DNA from: Amnibacterium setariae
GTDB taxonomy: Bacteria > Actinomycetota > Actinomycetes > Actinomycetales > Microbacteriaceae
DNA length: 64,000 bases
Assembly: GCF_003581425.1 (NCBI RefSeq)
Contig: NZ_QXTG01000002.1
Location: 1,302,001-1,366,000, forward strand
Direction: 5' to 3'
The notes under the pieces were generated by a model. The model was not told the origin of the DNA, searched no databases, and was given only the letters and a program-made list of their open reading frames with translations. Of the stretch, positions 46,319 to 64,000 are shown piece by piece. Each line of letters starts with the position of its first letter. Position 1 is the first letter of the stretch. The position numbers were made by a program, and so were the translations under genes.

Positions 46319-47271
46319 CCCGCATCACCGGGATCCGAGGGCTGACGGCCGGATCGAGCGCGCAGGAGGTCGTCGACGGCGTCGACCTCGACGGCCGGGT
46401 GGCGGTGGTCACCGGGGCGTCGTCCGGCATCGGGGTCGAGACCGCCCGGGCGCTCGCTTCCGCGGGGGCGCGGGTCGTGCTCGCGGTCCGTCGGCCGGAG
46501 GCCGGCGAGCGCGTGGCGGAGGACATCCGCCGGTCGACGGGCAGCACCGCGGTCGCCGTGCAGGAGCTCGTGCTCGACGACCTCGGGTCGGTCGACCGGT
46601 TCGTGGACCGCTGGTCGGGCCCGCTGCACGTCCTCGTGAACAACGCCGGGATCATGGCGACGCCGGAGCGGTACACGTCCGCCGGCTGGGAGCTGCAGTT
46701 CGCGACGAACCACCTCGGGCACTTCGCGCTGGCCACCGGTCTGCACGACGCGCTCCGGGATGCGGACGACGCCCGGGTGGTGTCCGTCGCGTCGACGGGC
46801 AGCAACGACTCCCCCGTCGTCTTCGAGGACCTCTTCTTCCTCCGACGCCCGTACGACCCGTCGGAGGCGTACGGGCAGTCGAAGACCGCGAACGTGCTGT
46901 TCGCGGTCGGGGCCTGGCAGCGCTGGGCCGGCGACGGGATCACGGCGAACGCCTGCATGCCGGGCGGGATCTGGACCAACCTGCAGCAGCACTGGGACCC
47001 GGAGGTCCTGCGGCGCGAGCAGGCGCGCGCCACCGACGTCGTGAAGACCCCGCAGCAGGGCGCGGCGACCTCGGTGCTGCTGGCGACCGCGCCCGAGCTG
47101 AGCGGCGTCGGCGGCCGGTACTTCGAGGACTGCCGCGAGGCCGAGATCGTGCCGGAGGTCCTCGACGGCCTGCACGGCGTGCGGGACTGGGCCCTGGACC
47201 CCGTCGCGGCGGAGCGACTCTGGGACGTCTCGCTCGCCCTGCTCGACGCCGAGCGGCGGCGCACCCGCTGA
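46315..47271 (+). CDS. short-chain dehydrogenase/reductase (retinol-dehydrogenase-like)
   Basis: This 318-residue SDR carries an extra 25-residue N-terminus. Then comes TGASSGIG as cofactor loop, NNAGIM, VASTGS for Ser and YGQSK for the catalytic pair. The segment ELQFATNHLGHFALATGLHD is typical of the RDH/WWOX-like branch, as is the protein at 38588. It is coupled to its TetR regulator by an ATGA overlap. It likely reduces or oxidises a hydrophobic carbonyl compound. Confidence 0.87.
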   Translation: MTRITGIRGLTAGSSAQEVVDGVDLDGRVAVVTGASSGIGVETARALASAGARVVLAVRRPEAGERVAEDIRRSTGSTAVAVQELVLDDLGSVDRFVDRWSGPLHVLVNNAGIMATPERYTSAGWELQFATNHLGHFALATGLHDALRDADDARVVSVASTGSNDSPVVFEDLFFLRRPYDPSEAYGQSKTANVLFAVGAWQRWAGDGITANACMPGGIWTNLQQHWDPEVLRREQARATDVVKTPQQGAATSVLLATAPELSGVGGRYFEDCREAEIVPEVLDGLHGVRDWALDPVAAERLWDVSLALLDAERRRTR

Positions 47272-54534: not shown

Positions 54535-54626
54535 GCTGGCGTCTGAAACGCGTGCTCGTGAGACAAGCACCGGTGGCCGGGAGGCGTCAGCACCTGCCTG
54601 ACGATTCCAGCTCTTAGAGTTCGGCG

Positions 54627-54833
54627 ATGGAGTCGGAGCTGGGCTGCCCCGTGTGCCGAGCAGGAGCGCACACGATCGACATCCCAGAGGTGGGCGTGAG
54701 CTTGATGAGTCACGTGATCGTCCGCCGGTGCCCTGCCTGCGCGACCTACTGGCTTGAGACCGAGCGCTACCTGGCGGCCGTCTCGGATGACGAAGCTCGA
54801 CGGGAAGCGCCCGACGTCCTCGCGGCTGGCTGA
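54627..54833 (+). CDS. small double-CxxC zinc-ribbon protein
   Basis: This 68-residue protein has CPVC (residues 7-10) and CPAC (35-38), a classical zinc-ribbon arrangement, with a strand-rich HTIDIPEVGVSLMSHVIVRR between. The rest is an acidic helix. It could bind nucleic acid or a partner protein. The ribosome site is poor, so a leaderless transcript is possible. No functional context is visible. Confidence 0.55.
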   Translation: MESELGCPVCRAGAHTIDIPEVGVSLMSHVIVRRCPACATYWLETERYLAAVSDDEARREAPDVLAAG

Positions 54834-54951
54834 CGCTCAACCGGTCTCGCTCCCCTACTTGGAATACGACTTCCGCACTGCTTCTCGAGCGCGGTCGATC
54901 GCCGAACACCTCGGTCTTCCCCGCTCTGAACCGGCGCAGCTACGACGCAGC

Positions 54952-55596
54952 TCAGATACCGGTGAGGGCACGAACGGCGGCTCGCAGACGGGCCGCTTCG
55001 CGTTCTTGCTGCCGGACCCGCGGCCGCTTCCAGGTGCCCCAGTTCTCGGACCAGTCGCGGAACACGGATCCCGGCCCGCCCGCGGGCAGGTCCAACTGGG
55101 TGAGCAGGACGGGGAGCGGGATGTACGCGATGTGGGTCAACACGTTCGCGCGCGGGGTCTGCGGACTACCACCGCGCTCGAACGGGTAGTCCGGCAGCCG
55201 AGCCACGGTCTCGCCGTCCTCGACAAGAAGGGCGGTGTGCTGGTCTTCGAGCACCACCGACAGTGGGCCATCGGGTGCGGGCACGAAAGACGGCACGCGC
55301 ATGAGCCCGGCGTCGTCCAGCCGCCCGATGCTGCGACGCCTCTCGCGCAGCATGAACAGCACCATCCATGCCTGAACGATGTCGAACCTGCCCTCGATGA
55401 CGGGCCCTTGGAAGTTGCCGCGGCTCCATGTCGCGACGCGGAGCCACTCGTCGCCCGCGGGCTCGACGATGACATCCGGGCCGCCTTCTGCGATCAGGGG
55501 CTGCGGTCCGAACTCGCCCCGCTCGCCCCTCTCACGCGACGGATGCAACGGCGGAAGCCACTCGGCCAGCAACGGATCAATCGTGCGCTGCCCCAA
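54952..55596 (-). CDS. hypothetical protein
   Basis: This 214-residue soluble protein has no family I recognise. Strand-rich stretches include GPDVIVEPAGDEWLRVATWS, GRFDIVQAWMVLFMLRERRR, and a final helical, basic tail after WSENWGTWKRPRVRQQ. I chose the TTG at 55596 because GAGAGGGG stands at the right distance and the upstream frame loses coding character. It faces two CxxC-type and repeat-containing stretches and lies alone on its strand. The length and good codon use favour a real gene. Confidence 0.55.
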   Translation of the reverse strand: MGQRTIDPLLAEWLPPLHPSRERGERGEFGPQPLIAEGGPDVIVEPAGDEWLRVATWSRGNFQGPVIEGRFDIVQAWMVLFMLRERRRSIGRLDDAGLMRVPSFVPAPDGPLSVVLEDQHTALLVEDGETVARLPDYPFERGGSPQTPRANVLTHIAYIPLPVLLTQLDLPAGGPGSVFRDWSENWGTWKRPRVRQQEREAARLRAAVRALTGI

Positions 55597-55832
55597 TCCA
55601 GCCCCTCTCGACCGTCCCGGACGCTCATCCTGCCGAGCGACGCGGTGCGCACAGGACGACACAGATGGAGGTGAGCTCAGCTCTCCGAGTGCATCGCGTG
55701 TCAGTCACCGTGCGAACGAGACGCTCCGATGCCCTGCTCATCGGCATCAGGTTCGCGTCTCGAGTTGTTCTGGCGCAGCGCGTCCGCTGCGACTTCCTTC
55801 TGACGCGTTCGATCTCGTCGCGTACAGCGGTG

Positions 55833-56795
55833 TCAGATGTCGACGACGACCTTGCCGTGGACATGGCGCCCGGATTGCAGCTCGACGGCAGCGCCGATCT
55901 GCTCCATCGGGAAAGTCGCGGCGATCGGCAGGCGGATCCTGCCCTCCGCGACGTGGCGCGCGATCTCCTCGAGGGCGCCGGGAGCCGCGTTCGCGCCGTT
56001 CGCCGGCACGATGCCGTCGATCTGTGCGGCGATGGTGGTGATGCGCGCATCGGACACGCCGAGCTCTCGAGCCACCTCGGCTGTGTCCGTGCCGTGCAGG
56101 TCCAGCGCCGCAGTGACGCCATCGGGCGCGAGCTCACGCACCCGATCGGCCAGCCCGGGCCCGTAGATCACCGGCTCGGCGCCGAGGTCGCGCAGCGAGT
56201 CGGCGGAGGCGGCAGAGCCGGTACCGATCACCCGAGCACCCGCAAGACGCGCGAGCTGGACGACGAAGACGCCGACACCGCCGCCTGCTCCGCCGACGAG
56301 CACGGTGTCGCCCGGAGCGAGCCGCACGACTGCCAGTGCCGCAGCTGCCGTCGAACCCGCGATGGTCAGCGCAGAAGCGGTGCGGTCGTCGAGAGCCTTC
56401 GGCGTGTGATGCGCGCTGCCTCCGACCGCGATCGCTCCGTCCGGTTCGACCACCACGTACTCGGCGACCGTCCGTGACAGCGCGCCGCCGAAGACCCGGT
56501 CCCCGATGGAGAACCCCGCCACGCCCTCACCGACTTCGTCGACGACCCCGGCGTAGTCCGTGCCGAAGCCCGACGGGAGACTCAGGCGGAACCGAGCAGC
56601 AGTATCCGCATCAGACGTCATGAACCAGTCCATCGGGTTCAAGCCCGCCGCCGTCACCTTCACACGCACCTGCCCGGCTGCGGCATGAGGGGCAGGAACC
56701 GCAACGACGCGAAGCGCCTCAGGACCCCCGAATCGTTCGACGAACTGCACCGCTCGTCCGAGATCCGTCGCCACATCTCGGGTCTCAGCAGTCAT
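55833..56795 (-). CDS. zinc-free quinone oxidoreductase / alcohol dehydrogenase-like (MDR)
   Basis: This 320-residue NADPH-dependent MDR enzyme of the quinone-oxidoreductase (QOR/CrtA) type has no zinc cysteines. FGTDYAGVVDEVGEGV opens the catalytic domain, VGGAGGGVGVFVVQLARLAG is the Rossmann loop, and the C-terminus ends HVHGKVVVDI. The family reduces quinones or enals. It diverges from the TetR at 56880 across two copies of a GGA-N5-TTCCGTT element, so it is the likely target of that repressor. Confidence 0.88.
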   Translation of the reverse strand: MTAETRDVATDLGRAVQFVERFGGPEALRVVAVPAPHAAAGQVRVKVTAAGLNPMDWFMTSDADTAARFRLSLPSGFGTDYAGVVDEVGEGVAGFSIGDRVFGGALSRTVAEYVVVEPDGAIAVGGSAHHTPKALDDRTASALTIAGSTAAAALAVVRLAPGDTVLVGGAGGGVGVFVVQLARLAGARVIGTGSAASADSLRDLGAEPVIYGPGLADRVRELAPDGVTAALDLHGTDTAEVARELGVSDARITTIAAQIDGIVPANGANAAPGALEEIARHVAEGRIRLPIAATFPMEQIGAAVELQSGRHVHGKVVVDI

Positions 56796-56834
56796 GGGGA
56801 TACGTCTCCTCGCATCGAAGAACGAGCCCGAAAT

Positions 56835-56851
56835 GGACTATGTTCCGTTCG
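56835..56851. promoter_or_regulatory. candidate TetR operator GGA-N5-TTCCGTTCG
   Basis: GGACTATGTTCCGTTCG recurs 40 bases downstream as GGAGCGTGTTCCGTTTG. The two sites cover the divergent promoters of the quinone oxidoreductase and the TetR gene. Confidence 0.5.
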
Positions 56852-56874
56852 GCCAGCGACCGTAACACAGATCC

Positions 56875-56891
56875 GGAGCGTGTTCCGTTTG
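56875..56891. promoter_or_regulatory. second copy of GGA-N5-TTCCGTTTG
   Basis: This copy overlaps the first possible TetR start (GTG at 56880). Either repression works by blocking early elongation, or the true start lies further down, for example the TTG at 56889 with GGAG upstream. Confidence 0.45.
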
Positions 56892-57458
56892 ACGTCATCG
56901 CAGGTACGTGAGCCGAGATCGGACGCGGCCCGGAACAGGAAGCAGCTGCTCGAGGTGGCGACGCGCGTTCTCGCGACCGCTGGCGCCGAGACCTCGATGC
57001 GAGCGATCGCGCGGGAGGCAGGAGTCGGCGTGGCGACGTTGTACCGCCACTTCCCGACACGCGAGTCCCTCGTGGATGCGGTGTACCGCGATCAGGTCGA
57101 GCGTCTGACGACAGGAGCTGGGGAACTCCTTGCTCGCCTTCCACCTCGCAAGGCTCTCCGCGAGTGGATGGACCTCTTCGGCGACTGGATCGCGACCAAG
57201 AACGGCATGCTCGACACCATGGCCGCGATGATCGAAGCCGGCGAGCTGGCGCACGCACAGACGCGAACAGAGTTGCTCACTGCGATCGACGTGCTGCTCG
57301 ACGCCGGGCGAGAAGCCGGCCAGATCCGGGAGCACGTCACCGCGGACGACATCGCCGCCGGACTCATCGGCATCTTCACCGTCGCCCACCCGCCCGAGCT
57401 GGAACGAGCAGAACGGCTGCTCGACATCTTCAGCGACGGCCTGCGACCGCCTGATTGA
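56880..57458 (+). CDS. TetR-family repressor
   Basis: This regulator of up to 192 residues has a helix-turn-helix at about residues 16-62 (VLATAGAETSMRAIAREAGV, then GVATLYRHFPTRESLVDAVY). The C-terminal domain belongs to the SbtR-like/TetR_C_33 class (ARLPPRKALREWMDLFGDWIA). The first start is uncertain because the operator copy covers it. It diverges from the quinone oxidoreductase and most probably represses it in response to an electrophile. Confidence 0.82.
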   Translation: MFRLTSSQVREPRSDAARNRKQLLEVATRVLATAGAETSMRAIAREAGVGVATLYRHFPTRESLVDAVYRDQVERLTTGAGELLARLPPRKALREWMDLFGDWIATKNGMLDTMAAMIEAGELAHAQTRTELLTAIDVLLDAGREAGQIREHVTADDIAAGLIGIFTVAHPPELERAERLLDIFSDGLRPPD

Positions 57459-57510
57459 CCACCGAGCCAGGCGCCGCTCCCGCCGCGGAGACCGCCCAGA
57501 TCCCGTGGCG

Positions 57511-57575
57511 CGAGACGTCTCACTCCTCCGCTCCTGAGACGTCCCACACCCGTGCGCGTGAGACGAGCTGCCGCG
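57511..57575 (+). repeat. 24-base repeat locus A (three units)
   Basis: Units begin at 57511, 57535 and 57559, exactly 24 bases apart, with consensus YGAGACGTCYCACNCC, a pyrimidine stretch and CTCG. The third unit is partial. It lies just after the TetR gene. CGTCTCA and TGAGACG of adjacent units can pair as a hairpin. Confidence 0.7.
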
Positions 57576-57606
57576 TGACCATGCAGCCCCGGCGCAGAAT
57601 GACGGT

Positions 57607-58188
57607 CTAGTCGCGCTGGCGGCTCGTGAGTCCCGCTCGAACGACAGCCTCAAGGGCTGCGCGTCGCCGAAGATGCACGGTCGCAGCATCGTCACCAGTG
57701 GCGACGACCGTGAGCGACCCCTGCGCCCAGGTTGCAGCGGTGCTGATCAGCAGCGACCACACGTCCTCGGCGCTGATGTCGCTGCGGATCACCCCGCGCG
57801 CCTGCTGGTCGGAGATGGCGGCGAGGTGGCGCGCGTCGTTGTCCTCGAGGCCGTCATAGAGGTACCCCTGCTGTACCCGCTCAAGCCGCTTCCACATCAC
57901 GAGGCGCAGCAGCGCCGGGTCGGTGAGGTAGTCGTCGTAGAGGCGCACGGCGTACCCAGGCAGGTCATCAGCGGCGAAGGGCGCGCGATCGGAGTTGCCG
58001 ATGACGTGGTCCTGGAACACCGCGTCGAAGAGCTGCTCCTTCGAGCCGAAGTACGCGTACAGCATCGGCTTGCTCGCACCGGAAGTCTCCGCGATCCGGT
58101 CCACCCGCGCTCCGGCGATGCCGCGCGCCGCGAACTCCGCCGTTGCCGCGTCGAGGATCCGTTGCCGAGTACGAGTCGCGTCTGCCAC
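57607..58188 (-). CDS. TetR-family repressor
   Basis: This 193-residue regulator has a helix-turn-helix at residues 8-52 (FAARGIAGARVDRIAETSGA, then SKPMLYAYFGSKEQLFDAVF). Its ligand domain, with DLPGYAVRLYDDYLTDPALL, matches the TetRs at 39616 and 45671. It starts at a GTG. It diverges from the zinc alcohol dehydrogenase across a TACC-N8-GGTA palindrome, and should repress it. Confidence 0.87.
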   Translation of the reverse strand: MADATRTRQRILDAATAEFAARGIAGARVDRIAETSGASKPMLYAYFGSKEQLFDAVFQDHVIGNSDRAPFAADDLPGYAVRLYDDYLTDPALLRLVMWKRLERVQQGYLYDGLEDNDARHLAAISDQQARGVIRSDISAEDVWSLLISTAATWAQGSLTVVATGDDAATVHLRRRAALEAVVRAGLTSRQRD

Positions 58189-58206
58189 CCGCCCAGCCTA
58201 CGTTGC

Positions 58207-58222
58207 TACCGACCGGTAGGTA
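58207..58222. promoter_or_regulatory. candidate TetR operator TACCGACCGGTAGGTA
   Basis: TACC and GGTA flank an ACCGGT core. It lies 18 bases from the TetR start and 12 from the ADH start. It shares ACC-N-ACCGGT with the site at 45648, as expected for related repressors. Confidence 0.55.
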
Positions 58223-58233
58223 GTGTTGGCGGC

Positions 58234-59301
58234 ATGGACACCACAGCGCTCCTCTCGCAGCAGGTCGACGGACCCCTCGTGCCGACCACGATCCACCGGC
58301 GGGATCTGCGCCCCGACGACCTCGACGTCGTCGTGAGGTACTGCGGCGTCTGCCACTCCGATCTGCACGCTCTGCACACTCCGCCCGAGCAGGGCGGGAC
58401 ATTCCCGCTCGTGCCCGGGCACGAGTTCGTCGGCGAGGTCGTCGCCGTCGGCGAAGCGGTGATCGAGTTCCGCCCGGGCGACTCAGTGGCCGTGGGCAAC
58501 ATCGTCGACTCGTGCGGAGAGTGCCGGATGTGCCTCGCGGGGCAGGAGAACTTCTGCGAGCAGTTCCCGACCCTCACCTACGGCGGCCGGGACCGGCATG
58601 ACGGCACCATCACGCAGGGCGCGTACGCGAACCGCTACATCGTGCGCGACCGCTTCGCGTACCACCTCCCGGCGTCCCTCGACCCGGCAGGCGTCGCGCC
58701 GCTGATGTGCGCCGGCATCACGGTCTGGGAGCCGCTGCGCGCAGCCGGCGTCGGGCCTGGCACCCGGCTCGGCGTGGTCGGGCTCGGCGGCCTCGGTCAC
58801 CTCGCAGTCCGGTTCGGCGCCGCTCTCGGCGCCACAGTCACGGTCTTCACCACCTCGTCCGCGAAGAGCGACGACGCACGCGCACTGGGTGCCTCCGCCG
58901 TCGTCGTGTCCACGGATGCCACCGCGATGCAAGGGCAACGCGGGAACCTCGACGTCATCCTCGACACCGTCGCGGTCGAGCACGATCTGGCGCCCTACCT
59001 CCACGCGCTGGATCTCGACGGGACGCTCTTCTCCATCGGGTACCTGGGCCCGGTGACCGTGCAGACCACGGACCTGCTCGTCGGCAGGAAGCGCCTCGCC
59101 TCCGCCGGCAGCGGAGGCCGCCAGCACACCCAGGAGATGCTCGACTTCTGCGCGCGCCACGGCCTCATCGCAGACGTCGAAGTGCTGCCCTCCTCCAGCA
59201 TCGCCACAGCGTTGGACCGCCTGGCGAGCAACGACGTCCGCTACCGCTTCGTCCTCGACCTCAACGACCTCAGGTCCGCCGGCACGGACGAGCACCGATG
59301 A
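58234..59301 (+). CDS. zinc-dependent alcohol dehydrogenase (YahK/cinnamyl-type MDR)
   Basis: This 355-residue medium-chain dehydrogenase has catalytic zinc ligands Cys37 (CGVCHSD) and His63 (PGHEF), with Cys in APLMCAGITVW expected as the third. The structural zinc cluster is Cys94, Cys97, Cys100 and Cys108 (CGECRMCLAGQENFC). The NAD(P) loop is GLGGLGHLAV. The pattern fits YahK/AdhC-like NADPH-dependent aldehyde reductases. Its stop overlaps the Ddn-like gene (ATGA). With the divergent TetR it forms an aldehyde- or alcohol-responsive unit. Confidence 0.9.
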   Translation: MDTTALLSQQVDGPLVPTTIHRRDLRPDDLDVVVRYCGVCHSDLHALHTPPEQGGTFPLVPGHEFVGEVVAVGEAVIEFRPGDSVAVGNIVDSCGECRMCLAGQENFCEQFPTLTYGGRDRHDGTITQGAYANRYIVRDRFAYHLPASLDPAGVAPLMCAGITVWEPLRAAGVGPGTRLGVVGLGGLGHLAVRFGAALGATVTVFTTSSAKSDDARALGASAVVVSTDATAMQGQRGNLDVILDTVAVEHDLAPYLHALDLDGTLFSIGYLGPVTVQTTDLLVGRKRLASAGSGGRQHTQEMLDFCARHGLIADVEVLPSSSIATALDRLASNDVRYRFVLDLNDLRSAGTDEHR

Positions 59302-59741
59302 TCCGAGACGACGAGCACGACCACCCCCTCCTGCCGCCCGAGGTGCTGCGCGCGCTCGACATCGACCGGCATTCGACTGCGTGGCAGCGGACCGTGGACA
59401 TCACCACGACCGGCGCGAGAACCGGACGCCCTCGCCGGATCGAGATCTGGTTCCACAAGATCGAGGGCCGCTGGTACCTCAGCAGCACCCCGGCGCGGCG
59501 GTCGTGGTACGCGAACCTCCTCGCGCACCCTCGTTTCGTGTTCCACCTCAAGCACGGGATCCGCGCCGACCTGCCCGCCATCGCCGTTCCCGTGCCGGAT
59601 CCAACGGAGCGCCGGCGGATCTTCCAGCACATCGTGGACGACTTCAATCAACCTCACGATCCCGCTCGGGTCGGCCGCGCCCAGCACGTGGAGGACTGGC
59701 TTGCGGCCAGCCCGCTGCTCGAGATCCGTTTCGCCGCCTGA
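59298..59741 (+). CDS. Ddn-like F420-type nitroreductase-family protein
   Basis: This 147-residue protein resembles the deazaflavin-dependent nitroreductase (Ddn) family of the split-barrel fold: TVDITTTGARTGRPRRIEIW near residue 40, then RWYLSSTPARRSWYANLLAH. The usual partner is cofactor F420, present in many actinomycetes. The short length and the 'GARTGxxRxxxIW' core fit. It is coupled to the ADH by a four-base overlap and should reduce an enone, quinone or nitro compound. F420 use is an inference from family. Confidence 0.78.
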   Translation: MIRDDEHDHPLLPPEVLRALDIDRHSTAWQRTVDITTTGARTGRPRRIEIWFHKIEGRWYLSSTPARRSWYANLLAHPRFVFHLKHGIRADLPAIAVPVPDPTERRRIFQHIVDDFNQPHDPARVGRAQHVEDWLAASPLLEIRFAA

Positions 59742-59779
59742 CGCAGCACGCACCCAGACAGGTCGCGAGCGAGCTACCG

Positions 59780-59811
59780 ATGTCTCAGATACCTGCTCGC
59801 GAGACGCGCTT
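59780..59811 (+). repeat. 24-base repeat locus B
   Basis: A partial unit, TGTCTCAGATACCTGCTCG, joins a CGAGACGCGCTT unit at 59800. It lies after the Ddn-like gene and before the interrupted lipoprotein gene, in no coding context. Confidence 0.55.
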
Positions 59812-59869
59812 GATGCTGCGACCACATCGCGTCCATTTGGGCGATGCTGTGCCAGTGTCTCGCGTGCGG

Positions 59870-60340
59870 ATGCCTCACGGTCGTGTTCTTCGTCCAGGGT
59901 TGTTGGTCGCGGTGGCCTTCGTTGCGGTGGCAGGTCTGAGCGGCTGCGCAGACTCAACGACGACCGACGCCCGCTACGACGCTTGGTACGACCAAATCTA
60001 GACCGTGTTCCGCGACCCGGACGGAGTCAGCGGCGGCGGCGGCGTCGAGCCAGGGACCGTGCACCTCGGGATGATGCAGCCCGGGAAGTGGACGGTGTAC
60101 GCCGTCTGCAACAACATCGACCTACTCCACCTCCAGATCCGCAGCGCCGGCAAGACACAGGCCGAGACCGATATCCCCTGCGGCGTGACCATTGCCATCC
60201 CGGTCACGGTGACCGCGGCAGGAGCACGGGACTTCGCGATAGCGACGAGCTACCCCAAGGGCGCTGATGGCCCCGCTTGGTGGAGCGCCCAGGTGAACAG
60301 CACCACGTGGCGGCAGACCCAGTCCTTCAGCTTCAAGTGA
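59870..60340 (+). pseudogene. lipoprotein gene interrupted by in-frame TAG
   Basis: A signal peptide with lipobox (GLLVAVAFVAVAGLSGC) begins a secreted lipoprotein. After 43 residues the frame meets TAG at 59999-60001, then continues without further stops to 60340 with GKWTVYAVCNNIDLLHLQIR and further strand-rich sequence. Read-through would give about 156 residues. The codon before the break is ATC and the next is ACC, so CAG or TGG could have been the original. A downstream GTG at 60005 could start the second part. I read it as a recent nonsense mutation, or possibly a natural amber. Confidence 0.6.
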
Positions 60341-60359
60341 CAGAAACTGCGGTAGCGGT

Positions 60360-60696
60360 GTCTCGAACGCTAAGGCGCGCTTGATCGAGCTGCTGCTGCA
60401 CCCGGTGGCTGACTGGGTAGGTGAGCACCCGGACCAGACCCGCCAATCAAGCGAGAAAGTGTTCACCGGGTTCTTTTGGCCGTGGATCCGTGGCTAGGCG
60501 CTCGGACTTCCAAGCGGAGCTCTGGTGCTTAGCGGGGTGATCGCGAGCGGCATCGGCTTCGAGGTGATAAGCCGAGGACTACGTCCGACGCATCCGCGCC
60601 AAGTACGCCCGAGTCGGTCGCCTAGCCTCCACCAAGGTCGACCTCTACAAACGCGCCGTGGAAGACGGGTTCCTCCCCGGACCCACCCACCCCTGA
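60360..60696 (+). pseudogene. membrane-protein gene remnant with in-frame TAG and frameshift
   Basis: The frame reads LIELLLHPVADWVGEHPDQT, then FTGFFWPWIRG, meets TAG at 60495-60497, and continues with ALGLPSGALVLSGVIASGIG. It then shifts by one base near 60570 into EDYVRRIRAKYARVGRLAST, ending at 60696. Replacing TAG with Trp (TGG) and correcting one base gives a continuous membrane-anchored protein. No start codon with a ribosome site is seen, so the 5' end is also lost. I cannot name the family. Confidence 0.5.
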
Positions 60697-60851
60697 CCAC
60701 GCGGCCAAGCTTGACCCTTCCGAGCGGACCGGGCACCGGCCCGGCCCGAACGGGCCGAGCCGGTACCTATGGGCGAACTGTCTCGAAAGGACCTACCAGA
60801 CAAGAATCCACCTCGAACCATCAAGAGTCGTCAAAGAGGGCGCTCGTCCCG

Positions 60852-60912
60852 GGACATCTCACTTCCCTGGACGCGAGACGTCCCAGTCCCCTGCCGGAGA
60901 GACACCTCGACT
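60852..60912 (+). repeat. 24-base repeat locus C (three units)
   Basis: Units begin at about 60852, 60874 and 60897, with periods of 22-23 bases here. They read GGACATCTCACTTCCCTGGA, CGAGACGTCCCAGTCCCCTG and GAGAGACACC. It lies upstream of the small membrane protein at 60948. Confidence 0.6.
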
Positions 60913-60947
60913 CTTGCGTCACCCGAATACATCTCTACATTGAGGTG

Positions 60948-61205
60948 ATGGCAGCAGAGGACCAGCAGGTGACCGACGAACTCGTGTTGAGCGACCTGCC
61001 CGGGAAGCTGGCGGTCCTCGTCTTCGCCCTCGCAACGCTCGCGCTCGGGTGGGAACTGTGGGGAGTCATCTTCGCGTTCGGCTTCTTCCCTCGGTCTCTC
61101 AATTCGAGCGACTTCATCGGCGTCGCCTTGTTCACGACCGGCTGGCTCGGGCTCCTCGCCGGCCTACTAGTGCTCCGCCACCGCCGCCGAGACGCCGCTG
61201 GCTGA
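60948..61205 (+). CDS. small two-helix membrane protein
   Basis: This 85-residue protein has a polar N-terminus (MAAEDQQVTDELVLSDLPGK) and two hydrophobic helices: LAVLVFALATLALGWELWGV and FIGVALFTTGWLGLLAGLLV. A basic tail, RHRRRDAAG, follows. Good hydrophobic pattern and length favour a real gene. The ribosome site is poor, so the transcript may be leaderless. Function unknown. Repeat loci C and D flank it. Confidence 0.6.
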   Translation: MAAEDQQVTDELVLSDLPGKLAVLVFALATLALGWELWGVIFAFGFFPRSLNSSDFIGVALFTTGWLGLLAGLLVLRHRRRDAAG

Positions 61206-61253
61206 CCCTGCTGAACCAGAGCCGTCGAGGACCTTTGGCCGTCAACCCGACGG

Positions 61254-61301
61254 CACCTCTCACATCCCTGCTCGCGAGACGCTTCGCCTGCCGTCTCGTG
61301 C
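61254..61301 (+). repeat. 24-base repeat locus D
   Basis: CACCTCTCACATCCCTGCTC, then CGAGACGCTTCGCCTGCCG and TCTCG. Two units are readable and a third is truncated. It lies between the small membrane protein and the next, oppositely oriented gene. Confidence 0.55.
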
Positions 61302-61446
61302 AACGCCCGGCGCGCTGCGCCTGGGACCAGTAGCAGCTCCGCAAGCCCCGAATCGATTTACGGGTCAGTCCCGCTAACAACGCCACCGCCTAGCAGTCCG
61401 CTGGTTGCGAAGGAGGTCGCCTTGCGCCACGGCGCTCGATTCCCAC

Positions 61447-61689
61447 TCAGTCGAGCATCTCTACTCGAAGTCCTGTCCCGGCAAGCGCTTCGACCTGGGA
61501 AAGCAGATTAGGGGCCACTTCGGCCGGCGCACCGAGAGCAAGCACTCGGATCCGGGAGGGTGGGGCGCCCACGAGGATGACCTCCGCTGCGGGCTGATAC
61601 TCGCTGAGCCAGAACCGGATCTTCTCCCACGCGTTCTCGGCGAGCTCAAGATGCCCCTGCACAGCGACCAGGTCGAAGCGGTAAGTCAC
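61447..61689 (-). CDS. small hypothetical protein
   Basis: This 80-residue protein reads MTYRFDLVAVQGHLELAENA at its start and AEVAPNLLSQVEALAGTGLR near the end. The alternating strands and helices suggest a small ferredoxin-like fold. It starts at a GTG with no clear ribosome site. I do not recognise a family. It is the only convincing frame in this stretch, on either strand. Confidence 0.5.
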   Translation of the reverse strand: MTYRFDLVAVQGHLELAENAWEKIRFWLSEYQPAAEVILVGAPPSRIRVLALGAPAEVAPNLLSQVEALAGTGLRVEMLD

Positions 61690-61870
61690 AAGCAGAGGCT
61701 AAGACGAGCGAGAGGCACCGCGAGTGGCGCGCGCTGAACGGCGCACTGCGTCTTACGGTCGAGCGCTGGGAACGGTGCTCCATGCGCGCCGAATCTCTAC
61801 CCGTGAGTTGCCACGGGCATCGGCCAAGTCGGCCCCTCGAACAAATGCCGCAGCTACTGAAGCGCGCTCG

Positions 61871-61940
61871 TGAGACGTCTCGACCCCGTGCTCGTGAGAC
61901 ATCTCATCTACCTGGCCGCGAGACGTCGCGTCACTCACGC
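61871..61940 (+). repeat. 24-base repeat locus E (three units)
   Basis: Units begin at 61871, 61895 and 61919, exactly 24 bases apart: TGAGACGTCTCGACCCCGTG, TGAGACATCTCATCTACCTG and CGAGACGTCGCG. With locus A it shows the clearest 24-base periodicity. It lies in the gap upstream of the minus-strand membrane gene at 61982. Confidence 0.7.
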
Positions 61941-61981
61941 CGTACCGGACCATCCAAGCGAGCGACGTCCCCGTCAACCGG

Positions 61982-62212
61982 TCAAAGACCGCCGCTGATA
62001 CGCGTCCAGGCGGTCTTCCCCGCCGCGCGGTCGAAGGCGACCGTGGGATCGTCAGTACCGTTCGGCGAGCCGGCTCGCTCCAGCCCATTTGGCGCAGCGT
62101 GACGCGCGCGGACGGCACGGATGACAACTCGTACTGCCACAACAATGCCGACCACGCATGCCGCGATCACAATGAGCAAGGTCACAAGCGACCAGAGAGC
62201 ACTCAAACTCAT
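61982..62212 (-). CDS. small membrane protein
   Basis: This 76-residue protein has one long hydrophobic helix (ALWSLVTLLIVIAACVVGIV), a basic border, RVVIRAVRARHAA, and a polar tail. It starts at an ATG at 62212. It is the last of three small minus-strand membrane genes in 61.9-63.2 kb. Function unknown. Confidence 0.5.
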   Translation of the reverse strand: MSLSALWSLVTLLIVIAACVVGIVVAVRVVIRAVRARHAAPNGLERAGSPNGTDDPTVAFDRAAGKTAWTRISGGL

Positions 62213-62374
62213 CTGCGCACTCTGGCACCCGAATCGGCATTGCGACAGTCCCCCGCCCAGCGAACCCGGTGAACCATTCATGAATCAGCAGAAGGTTCCC
62301 GTCGTGGCTGGCCAGCACTGCGGAGGCAGCAAGTCTCAAAGCATCAACGGGAAGCGTTTCAGCACCTGGTGGCA

Positions 62375-62418
62375 ACACGTCTCACTCCCCTACAGGCGAG
62401 ACTCCCGGCTCACTGCCG
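62375..62418 (+). repeat. 24-base repeat locus F
   Basis: ACACGTCTCACTCCCCTACA and CGAGACTCCCGGCTCACTGC form two diverged units. The second runs into the 3' end of the small gene at 62410. Confidence 0.5.
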
Positions 62419-62601
62419 ACGAGCCTGCGATGGGGTACTCGCGGTTCCAGCCCCGCCCGTCGACGGCTCCGGGCGAGCATCGCGGATCCCGGCGGCCACC
62501 CCGCGCCGTATGACCCAGTAGAGCGCGACCAGTCCACCGACGACCAGGATCACCGGTGCCACGTAGGCCATTACGACAAGGACAAAGGCTGCGCCGTGCA
62601 C
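62410..62601 (-). CDS. small membrane protein
   Basis: This 63-residue protein starts at a GTG and has one hydrophobic helix of about 28 residues (AAFVLVVMAYVAPVILVVGG, then LVALYWVIRRG). A basic, Pro- and Thr-rich tail follows. The pattern matches a single-pass membrane peptide. A repeat unit overlaps its 3' end. Function unknown. Confidence 0.45.
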   Translation of the reverse strand: MHGAAFVLVVMAYVAPVILVVGGLVALYWVIRRGVAAGIRDARPEPSTGGAGTASTPSQARRQ

Positions 62602-62690
62602 GCGCGCACCTTACGGAGGGACGTGCTTCAGAGACAGTCGGGACACCCGGACTGGCGGAGGCCGACACCCGCTGGCCATGTCCCCGCTGC

Positions 62691-62723
62691 CTGCTCGTCT
62701 CAATTGCCTGCCCGTGGGACGTG
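62691..62723 (+). repeat. 24-base repeat locus G (diverged)
   Basis: GCTCGTCTCAATTGCCTGCC then CGTGGGACGTGG. This is a degenerate unit, recognised by the CTCGTCTCA and GGGACGT blocks, just downstream of the membrane gene at 62750. Confidence 0.4.
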
Positions 62724-62749
62724 GCCGCAACAGTCGGGTCGCCTCGCCC

Positions 62750-63130
62750 TCACACGAAACCCCAACCGAGGACCCCAAGCACGACGAAGGCGACGAGTAC
62801 TCGCGATGCCACGCGCCGCGTTGCAGCGGTCTTCTCCCGGCCCCGCATCCACCGCAGGAACACCGCTGCGACCGCTACCGCGACCAAGACGAAGCCGGCT
62901 CCAATCACGAGGCGTTGCCACAGAAGCAGCCCCACCTCCGCCAGCGCCACACGGACTCCCGACCCGCAAACCAGGAGGGACAGGATCAGCGGAATGGACC
63001 TTCCCGAGATCGCGGCGTTCGGCCGGCTCCGCTCTGGGTGCGACGCGGAGTAGCGGCGCTCCCAACGCCAAGCTGCAATCGTCAGGACGACGCCCACGAT
63101 CAGGATGCAGACACCGACCACAACAGCCAC
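62750..63130 (-). CDS. membrane protein with three helices
   Basis: This 126-residue protein starts at a GTG. Three hydrophobic helices are visible: VVVGVCILIVGVVLTIAAW (about 3-21), IPLILSLLVCGSGVRVALAE with the next VGLLLWQRLVIGAGFVLVAV, and VLVAFVVLGVLGWGFV at the end. A basic loop, RWERRYSASHPERSRPNAA, follows the first. It belongs to the run of small minus-strand membrane genes. No family recognised. Confidence 0.55.
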   Translation of the reverse strand: MAVVVGVCILIVGVVLTIAAWRWERRYSASHPERSRPNAAISGRSIPLILSLLVCGSGVRVALAEVGLLLWQRLVIGAGFVLVAVAVAAVFLRWMRGREKTAATRRVASRVLVAFVVLGVLGWGFV

Positions 63131-63185
63131 CCTGCTGTCCTACCTCGGTTCACGCTGCCAACACGAACGATGCAGCAGCTCCTGA

Positions 63186-63250
63186 GCGAGTCCCAGCAAC
63201 CCGCTCCCGAGACGTCCCACTTCCCTGCTCATGAGACGTCTTCCTCGCCT
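63186..63250 (+). repeat. 24-base repeat locus H (three units)
   Basis: Units begin at 63186 (partial), 63208 and 63232: GCGAGTCCCAGCAACCCGCT, CGAGACGTCCCACTTCCCTG and TGAGACGTCTTCC. The last two are exactly 24 bases apart. It lies between the membrane gene and the alpha/beta hydrolase. Confidence 0.65.
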
Positions 63251-63305
63251 CGATAGCGAAGGCAGGGCCGGTTCGGCGCTCACGCTCGCAACGGGCGAGC
63301 CGCGC

Positions 63306-64000
63306 TCAAGCGGTGCTGTCGAGAATCAGCCTGGTCGCTTCGTGCGGTGCATCCCACTGCGGGAAATGACCACACCGATCGAACCAGTGCAGCACCGCGT
63401 CGGGGAAGAGCTCGATGGCACGCGCGGCCTGTCTCGGCACGGTCACCAGATCACGACGACCCCAACCGATCGTGACCCGGCCGGGCACCGAACCAGCCGG
63501 GGCGCCCTGCTGCTTGGGCCCCTTCGTCAGGGCGTCCATGGCAGCACCGGTCGCCGGCGAGTCGGCCAGCCCGCGCACGTCCGGCAGCACGGTCTCGCGC
63601 AAGAGCGCCCACGGCCGTGCCGACAACTGCGCAAGCAGCACGGTCCTCCCGGCAGGGTTGCTGAGCAGCGCTGGCAACACGGGTCGCAATGCTCGAACCG
63701 CAGCGATCGATGGCCGCAGCGTGGCGCCGAAGACGGCGACCTCACGGTCGCTCCAGAAGCCGCCCGGATCCAACGCCACCGTGTCACCGCCGACACCCCG
63801 CCGTGCAAGCTCGAGCACGATTCGACCGCCCATGGACTGACCGACGGTCGAGACACCGCCAAGACCCTGCTCGCGGATGAAGTCCGCGACCGAATCGGTC
63901 AAGGTGGCGATCGAGACCTCGCCGGTCAACGGTGGCGTCTCGCCGAACCCCGGCAGGTCGACAGCGATCACCTCACGGCTCTCGGCCAGTCCGTCGAGTA
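63306..64000 (-). CDS. alpha/beta hydrolase, 5' end outside the window
   Basis: At least 230 residues of an alpha/beta hydrolase are seen; the start lies beyond the right edge. VDLPGFGETPPLTG is the strand-5 region. GQSMGG carries the nucleophile Ser, the Asp is in GWGRRDLVTVP, and the His is in RCGHFPQWDAP, a complete triad. The arrangement matches the MhpC/haloperoxidase-like group that cleaves C-C or ester bonds or epoxides. Neighbours give no hint at the substrate. Confidence 0.85.
   Translation of the reverse strand, partial: LDGLAESREVIAVDLPGFGETPPLTGEVSIATLTDSVADFIREQGLGGVSTVGQSMGGRIVLELARRGVGGDTVALDPGGFWSDREVAVFGATLRPSIAAVRALRPVLPALLSNPAGRTVLLAQLSARPWALLRETVLPDVRGLADSPATGAAMDALTKGPKQQGAPAGSVPGRVTIGWGRRDLVTVPRQAARAIELFPDAVLHWFDRCGHFPQWDAPHEATRLILDSTA

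Follow-up and report, generated by a model that had tools for sequence, protein, structure and literature searches.

Direct 24-bp repeats bounding gene cassettes in Amnibacterium: a probable integron-like array run by a Tn3-resolvase-like serine recombinase

The locus and its repeat unit

The stretch analyzed here, 64,000 nucleotides of the Amnibacterium setariae genome (contig NZ_QXTG01000002.1) with a guanine-cytosine (GC) content of 0.737, is referred to as the window. Its last part carries an array of 24-bp units that stand between genes, in one to three tandem copies, and that are probably the crossover sites of a gene cassette system. Genomes of the genus and family are labeled by G-numbers and their contigs by C-numbers; G000 is the window's genome, in which the window occupies C2:1302001-1366000, and G001-G006 are congeners. 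An earlier sequence-only reading of the window had described an intergenic family of about 24-base units at no fewer than eight loci and one additional junction at 54559, all towards one end. Every one of these places was recovered by a profile of the unit, which found 13 units above 17 bits, all on the + strand and spanning 54541-63237 (Table 1). The first 54 kb contained no unit even at a threshold of 14 bits, as that reading had noted, and 20 first-order Markov sequences of 64 kb yielded 0 units each. An earlier profile, which used a different frame and a smaller training set of units, gave one match at 47217 (17.4 bits), which is absent with the final profile. Searching with the consensus and at most three mismatches returned 6 matches where 0.16 were expected.

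The unit is best read in the frame GTCTCAC-N10-GYGAGAC, 24 bp long, with a conserved asymmetric center, CCTGC. The palindromic motif emphasized previously, GAGACGTCTC, is present, but only as the joint between two tandem units; by itself it occurs at chance level, with 10 matches at one mismatch versus 7.7 expected. The proposed 24-base period holds for all four tandem pairs above 17 bits in the window, and one step of 23 occurs beyond it; among the unit sites, a tandem-repeat search reported only the 57.5 kb locus. Gaps between units measure either 0 or about 150 bp to several kb, hold genes and lack spacers of constant length, in keeping with the earlier view that these are not clustered regularly interspaced short palindromic repeats (CRISPR). 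An Rfam scan of the window returned nothing over thresholds.

The confinement of the units to one end proved to be an edge effect, although all units within the window do lie from 54541 onward: the whole array comprises 24 units above 17 bits, all on the + strand, and runs from C2:1356541 to 1383473, ending at 81473 in window numbering. The surrounding island, at 53-82 kb in window numbering, has 63-74% GC, for the most part under 71%, and its flanks are mostly 71-79%. The island ends near a transfer RNA gene, tRNA-Glu (C2:1384174-1384247, -). Between the last unit and this gene, a 178-residue open reading frame (ORF; C2:1383574-1384110, 81574-82110 in window numbering) has no more than the C-terminal portion of a tyrosine integrase domain; it was considered as an integron integrase and rejected, being a fragment of a tRNA-type integrase. 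Elsewhere in G000 the motif is likewise clustered rather than evenly spread, at C1:1361-1364 kb, C1:642.4 kb and C1:55.9-58 kb. The suggestion of a new intergenic repeat family was right in outline.

Table 1. Units and associated genes of the array within the window (window numbering)
Feature	Position	Strand	Score or match
24-bp unit, first of array	54541..54564	+	26.3 bits
Cassette gene, zinc-type alcohol dehydrogenase / quinone oxidoreductase	55833..56795	-	PF08240, PF00107
Cassette gene, TetR regulator (true start probably further in)	56685..57458	+	PF00440, PF21597
24-bp unit	57517..57540	+	28.4 bits
24-bp unit, tandem with 57517 unit	57541..57564	+	22.7 bits
Cassette gene, TetR regulator	57607..58188	-	PF00440, PF17926
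ORF with zinc alcohol dehydrogenase (residues 214-494; true start well inside)	57673..59301	+	PF08240, PF00107
24-bp unit	59782..59805	+	35.0 bits
24-bp unit	60856..60879	+	29.1 bits
24-bp unit, tandem with 60856 unit	60880..60903	+	22.1 bits
One-gene cassette, 85 residues, membrane-like by eye	60948..61205	+	no Pfam, no PADLOC match
24-bp unit	61257..61280	+	33.1 bits
24-bp unit	61877..61900	+	27.9 bits
24-bp unit, tandem with 61877 unit	61901..61924	+	24.8 bits
One-gene cassette, 99 residues	61982..62281	-	no Pfam, no PADLOC match
24-bp unit	62379..62402	+	27.5 bits
24-bp unit	62697..62720	+	30.5 bits
One-gene cassette, 126 residues, membrane-like by eye	62750..63130	-	sub-threshold DUF4059 only; no PADLOC match
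24-bp unit	63190..63213	+	22.4 bits
24-bp unit, 5' edge of cassette common with congener G001	63214..63237	+	31.7 bits
Alpha/beta hydrolase cassette (gene 63306-64088, past window; next unit 64334)	63238..64000	-	PF12697; 89.9% cassette in G001

Distribution and genomic setting of the arrays

A covariance model of the unit found matches in all seven genus genomes (G000 34, G001 37, G004 13, G002 11, G006 6, G005 5 and G003 1), counted at E <= 5 and therefore including chance matches. Across the family, a scan with the unit model under stricter filters reached E <= 0.005 in 5 of 398 genomes, four belonging to the genus and the fifth, G194, having a single match. Judged by the nearest plasmid matches of a neighboring protein, 18 records from five genera including Curtobacterium, the family is probably Microbacteriaceae. 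A consensus scan of a genome collection, from which near records were possibly excluded, gave two single matches (a Synergistaceae metagenome-assembled genome and Brevibacterium) that were taken as chance; IMG/VR held no exact match to one unit pattern, and Rfam models detected only tRNAs at six congener loci.

For closer comparison, 14 regions from G000, G001, G002 and G004 were picked for having matches, and the final profile was trained on them. They contain 95 units above 17 bits, of which 94 lie on the majority strand of their region, the better-scoring strand being taken and one region having a single unit; a reversed-sequence control gave 1. Many units, being near-palindromic, also match weakly on the opposite strand. 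A tRNA gene is present in 10 of the 14 fetched regions, and in eight of these the units lie 3' of the nearest tRNA and on its strand.

Some arrays adjoin integrative elements that comprise a tyrosine integrase, a MobC-like protein (NF041423 at 8e-5 in one of three copies scanned, far under the cut-off) and a palindrome of about 125 nt, and repeats of the tRNA 3' part were found at five tRNA sites. Some arrays are probably carried by such elements. The palindrome, which is T-shaped, with four pairs changed on both sides, lies beside the MobC-like gene and tRNA integrase at G000:C1 35789-35943 and 55582-55736 and at G001:C1 836314, 872791, 884278 and 553427. It occurs in 37 of the 398 family genomes, including all 7 of the genus; since it is spread more widely than the units, the palindrome and the MobC-like gene were rejected as part of the cassette system. 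It is perhaps the origin of transfer (oriT) of a family of integrative mobilizable elements.

Architecture of the unit

Conservation across the 95 units is 82-100% in the outer arms (positions 2-5 and 20-24) and 86-92% in the center, C11 C12 T13 G14 C15, whereas positions 7-10 are variable. Pairing between the two arms does not exceed that of shuffled ones, with 498 paired cells against 507.6 +- 4.6 and 984 of 1000 shuffles reaching the observed value. Conserved arms around a fixed center, lacking arm covariation, form the pattern expected of a site bound by a protein dimer rather than of a hairpin, and the arms thus appear to act as protein half-sites. The suggestion of a hairpin or RNA element is consequently not supported. 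That of a protein-binding array fits in outline, but the nucleoid or partition protein that had been named lacks support as well, because units bound two moved segments and the half-site matches sites upstream of serine recombinase genes, as described below.

Segments between units

Successive units are separated by 64 gaps of at least 150 bp, with a median of 1045 bp and 45 of them no longer than 1500 bp, and the segments are mostly one- or few-gene. Comparing the regions by blastn revealed two segments that are bounded by units on both sides in both copies. The first pairs G000 1365213-1366345 with G001 852431-851304 (89.9% identity over 1135 bp). The second lies within one array of G001, where 850138-850734 and 862887-863485, 12.7 kb apart, share 97.7% identity over 599 bp. 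In both pairs, identity is 0.77-0.98 in the first and last 200 bp inside the units and 0.49-0.54 outside, against a mean of 0.50 and a maximum of 0.55 in 30 random pairs, and the change falls at the units. Within the bounding units, the half on the cassette side is the better kept (10 vs 8, 11 vs 5, 11 vs 10, and 11 vs 5 or 6 of 12 positions), which points to the unit center as the likely joint.

The segments of the array that were scanned encode dehydrogenases, TetR regulators and an alpha/beta hydrolase, along with several small proteins that match no Pfam family; seven array proteins had no match to the anti-phage defense models of PADLOC. An all-against-all blastp comparison found no common cassette recombinase inside the arrays, apart from head genes. 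The hydrolase gene shares 81% DNA identity with a gene on a Streptomyces cyaneofuscatus plasmid, at a locus where no units are present, and 65% with a Deinococcus gene. At about 59870-60340 of the window, a secretion-signal-like start and a 111-residue ORF are split by an in-frame stop near 59999, possibly representing a decayed cassette gene.

A serine recombinase at an array head and its half-site

On G002:C32, a gene for a 211-residue protein (983-1618, -) divergently adjoins the head of an array with + strand units at 1705 (weak, 16.6 bits), 1740 and 1764. The protein matches PF00239 (2.5e-30) and HTH_7 (PF02796, 1.4e-6), its best PDB match is Tn3 resolvase 5cy1 (E 4e-25), and its Ser and LDRLGR, which we take to be the catalytic residues, align to Tn3 resolvase. 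It is a Tn3-resolvase-like serine recombinase. A second serine recombinase gene (L051, 195-866, -) lies in tandem with the first, with no half-site in the 200 bp upstream.

Between the G002 recombinase gene and the units lies a head site composed of GTCTC-N25-GAGAC, five bases, and then TTCTGAGACA-NN-TTCTGAGA. Among head stretches picked for comparison, those of the main G001 array and of G000:C1 at 55.8 kb and 36.0 kb align to it, which makes four aligned heads in three genomes for this longer-spaced site. The G001 copy is close and, like that of G002, has GTCTC...GAGAC; the copy at 55.8 kb has GCGAC for GAGAC, that at 36.0 kb is degenerate, and a fifth, at 836 kb in G001, is broken off.

Relatives of the recombinase were detected in 69 of the 398 family genomes at E <= 1e-20, the best outside the genus having 54, 52 and 48% identity, and in two further genomes, at 46-47%, of an order-level draw of 396; IMG/VR yielded no relative among 9 stretches. 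In the 250 bp upstream of 30 related genes (29 other loci and G002), the 6-mer GTCTCA/TGAGAC, identical to the outer half-site of the unit, is the most over-represented, with 47 occurrences where the remainder of these loci would predict 2.62. It occurs in 23 of the 30 upstream regions, or 22 of 29 without G002. Several of these regions belong to genomes that are close relatives and so are not independent; the start codons were script-based guesses, and one match (L123) begins inside its gene, so that its 'upstream' region is not genuine. The 24-bp geometry of the unit, GTCTC-N14-GAGAC, appears five times in 33 upstream regions of 300 bp, in G231, G640 and G446 and twice in G002. G640 and G002 additionally have a site of 34/35 bp nearer the gene, a possible accessory site. 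Further 24-bp sites lie at G446:C24 336 and 4146, 3.8 kb apart, and at G114 8861.

Proposed mechanism

Two segments are bounded by units on both sides, the core is asymmetric and one-way, the half-sites are those of a serine recombinase clade, and a gene of this clade heads one array. Together these points make a serine-recombinase cassette array the best reading of the data, and we consider it likely that the units are the crossover sites of an integron-like array run by a small Tn3-resolvase-like serine recombinase. Each 24-bp unit would bind one recombinase dimer through its outer half-sites, and strands would be exchanged at the central CT dinucleotide (positions 12-13). Because the center is asymmetric, sites should recombine in one orientation only, from which it follows that all units of an array would be co-oriented, whatever the direction of the genes between them. 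A circular cassette with one unit would insert at a resident unit, which would leave the cassette between two direct unit copies; run backwards, the same reaction would excise it. Some arrays retain a head site, whose extra longer-spaced half-site pair resembles the accessory part of a resolvase res site.

In G000 no intact recombinase of this kind was found: PF00239 gave one match, a partial one at C2:920480, and nothing matched the G002 protein at 1e-20. The window's array is thus probably an orphan, comparable to attC clusters without an integron, or is served in trans.

Evidence against the model and alternative explanations

Several observations weigh against the proposed mechanism. The recombinase gene stands beside only 1 of the 14 arrays and was found in 1 of the 7 genus genomes, with the seven best candidates per genome scored. 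G001, which holds the recent duplicate cassette, has only two other PF00239 genes; both lie on contig C5 and fail to match the G002 protein at 1e-20. A wide clade, reaching down to 31-33% identity, has the half-site in common, so that the link is to a clade and not to a single gene. In the 33 upstream regions, convergent half-sites are most often 39 nt apart (7 cases) and less often 14 (5); the longer spacing is taken for the -60/-17 pair of more distant clade members. A strict pattern of the second part of the head site matches only G001 and G002 among the seven genomes. Outside the genus, a de novo repeat search of the fetched DNA around homologues in eight genomes found no cassette array, and none was seen around those of G640 and G446, inspected without such a search. 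Sharp borders on both sides are confined to two cassette pairs, and six further pairs aligned less cleanly: in pairs 3 and 8 both partners have a unit close to one end, pairs 4, 6 and 7 have one partner without a nearby unit, and one partner of pair 5 is not bounded on both sides. The genes of pairs 4-7 may also be found outside arrays, or their units may have decayed. Cassette genes point in both directions, 31 along the units and 25 opposite (57 gaps of 150-2500 bp, one without a scored ORF and seven longer gaps excluded, with an automatic ORF choice that errs in places); some cassettes are large, that at 68.8-79.1 kb containing several genes; and the window's array and G002:C52 break the rule of tRNA side and strand. 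Separately, a G001 gene (C5:61519, L095) encodes a 194-residue serine recombinase, has a single GTCTCA half-site within its 300 bp of upstream sequence, and could serve the G001 arrays in trans.

Tyrosine recombinases offer another candidate machinery, either the tRNA-targeting head integrases or a different enzyme acting on the units as IntI acts on attC. PF00589 integrases do occur at array heads in G000:C1 and G001:C1, the last unit in the window's array is closely followed by an integrase fragment, and a 24-bp site with inverted arms would suit such an enzyme too. However, the integrases vary from head to head, with tRNA-derived end repeats at five tRNA sites, while the unit stays constant; integron-integrase models score far below their cut-off (best TIGR02249, 52.7 versus 265 bits); and the GTCTCA half-site tracks the serine clade, for which alone enrichment was measured. 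We regard this explanation as unlikely. An ordinary intergenic repeat, akin to repetitive extragenic palindromes or bacterial interspersed mosaic elements, or a regulator site between genes, with the shared segments moved by other means, would account for intergenic units in one to three tandem copies, but hardly for the use of one strand within arrays, the clustering on islands, the absence of units from the rest of the window, the two cassettes ending at units or the lack of support for a hairpin, and it seems very improbable to us.

The units could also be passive relics, brought in with segments of separate elements that carried res sites and joined by occasional recombination between res sites at tRNA islands, with no dedicated exchange of cassettes. 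The location of islands at tRNA genes, five with end repeats, the palindromes and MobC-like genes near some islands, the failure to find the recombinase in six of the seven genus genomes and the persistence of res-like heads without a recombinase gene all accord with this account. Nevertheless, the units resemble minimal crossover sites repeated at short intervals, and the duplicate cassette within a single array of G001 indicates exchange after assembly. Passive accumulation therefore strikes us as improbable, and a serine-recombinase cassette array remains our preferred interpretation.

Relation to known systems

As in integrons and clusters of attC lacking integron-integrases (CALIN), small gene cassettes lie between co-oriented sites, arrays may be orphaned, and in G002 a head site is accompanied by a divergent recombinase gene. 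The system differs from integrons in that the recombinase belongs to the serine resolvase family instead of IntI, the four head integrases falling far under integron cut-offs; in its 24-bp two-arm sites, which, judged by arm pairing, are unlike the long folded attC sites; and in cassette genes that run in both directions.

The Xer-dependent pdif modules of Acinetobacter similarly consist of genes bounded by short two-arm recombination sites, which alternate in orientation. These sites are described as 28 bp long, in an 11+6+11 arrangement bound by XerC/XerD (PMC6449649), whereas the present unit has 24 bp and serine-resolvase half-sites. With the Tn3 and gamma-delta resolvase-res systems, the arrays share the recombinase family and the arrangement of an inverted-repeat site upstream with a longer-spaced site nearer the gene; for Tn3, the spacer of site II is reported to be longer than that of site III (PMC9943657). 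Unlike the single res of a Tn3 transposon, dozens of crossover sites here would serve as cassette borders, most with no accessory sites seen. Serine-invertase clusters of the Min/Cin type also provide several crossover sites for one recombinase, inverting the segments between opposed sites; the units described here, in contrast, are direct repeats.

Among the matches listed in open-licence full-text literature, judged by title and the start of the abstract, none described a serine-recombinase cassette array or this repeat; pairing 'integron-like' with 'serine recombinase' gave, on the same basis, only tyrosine recombinases.

Implications

Integrons are described as very rare in Actinobacteria (PMC9024848), which bears on how these bacteria stockpile single genes. 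A broader proposal, on which our judgement is evenly balanced, adds a third cassette platform to integrons and Xer modules. In these 'serine integrons', a serine recombinase of the resolvase-like type would take up single genes and reshuffle them at minimal crossover sites on the tRNA islands of one actinobacterial genus, mostly in orphan arrays served in trans. If correct, the half-site, the 24-bp geometry and the head site would provide a search model for finding further arrays, and the one-way, small DNA sites might be of laboratory use. Resting on an unrelated recombinase, such a cassette system would then constitute a convergent solution, giving these bacteria a separate route to collect and shuffle genes.

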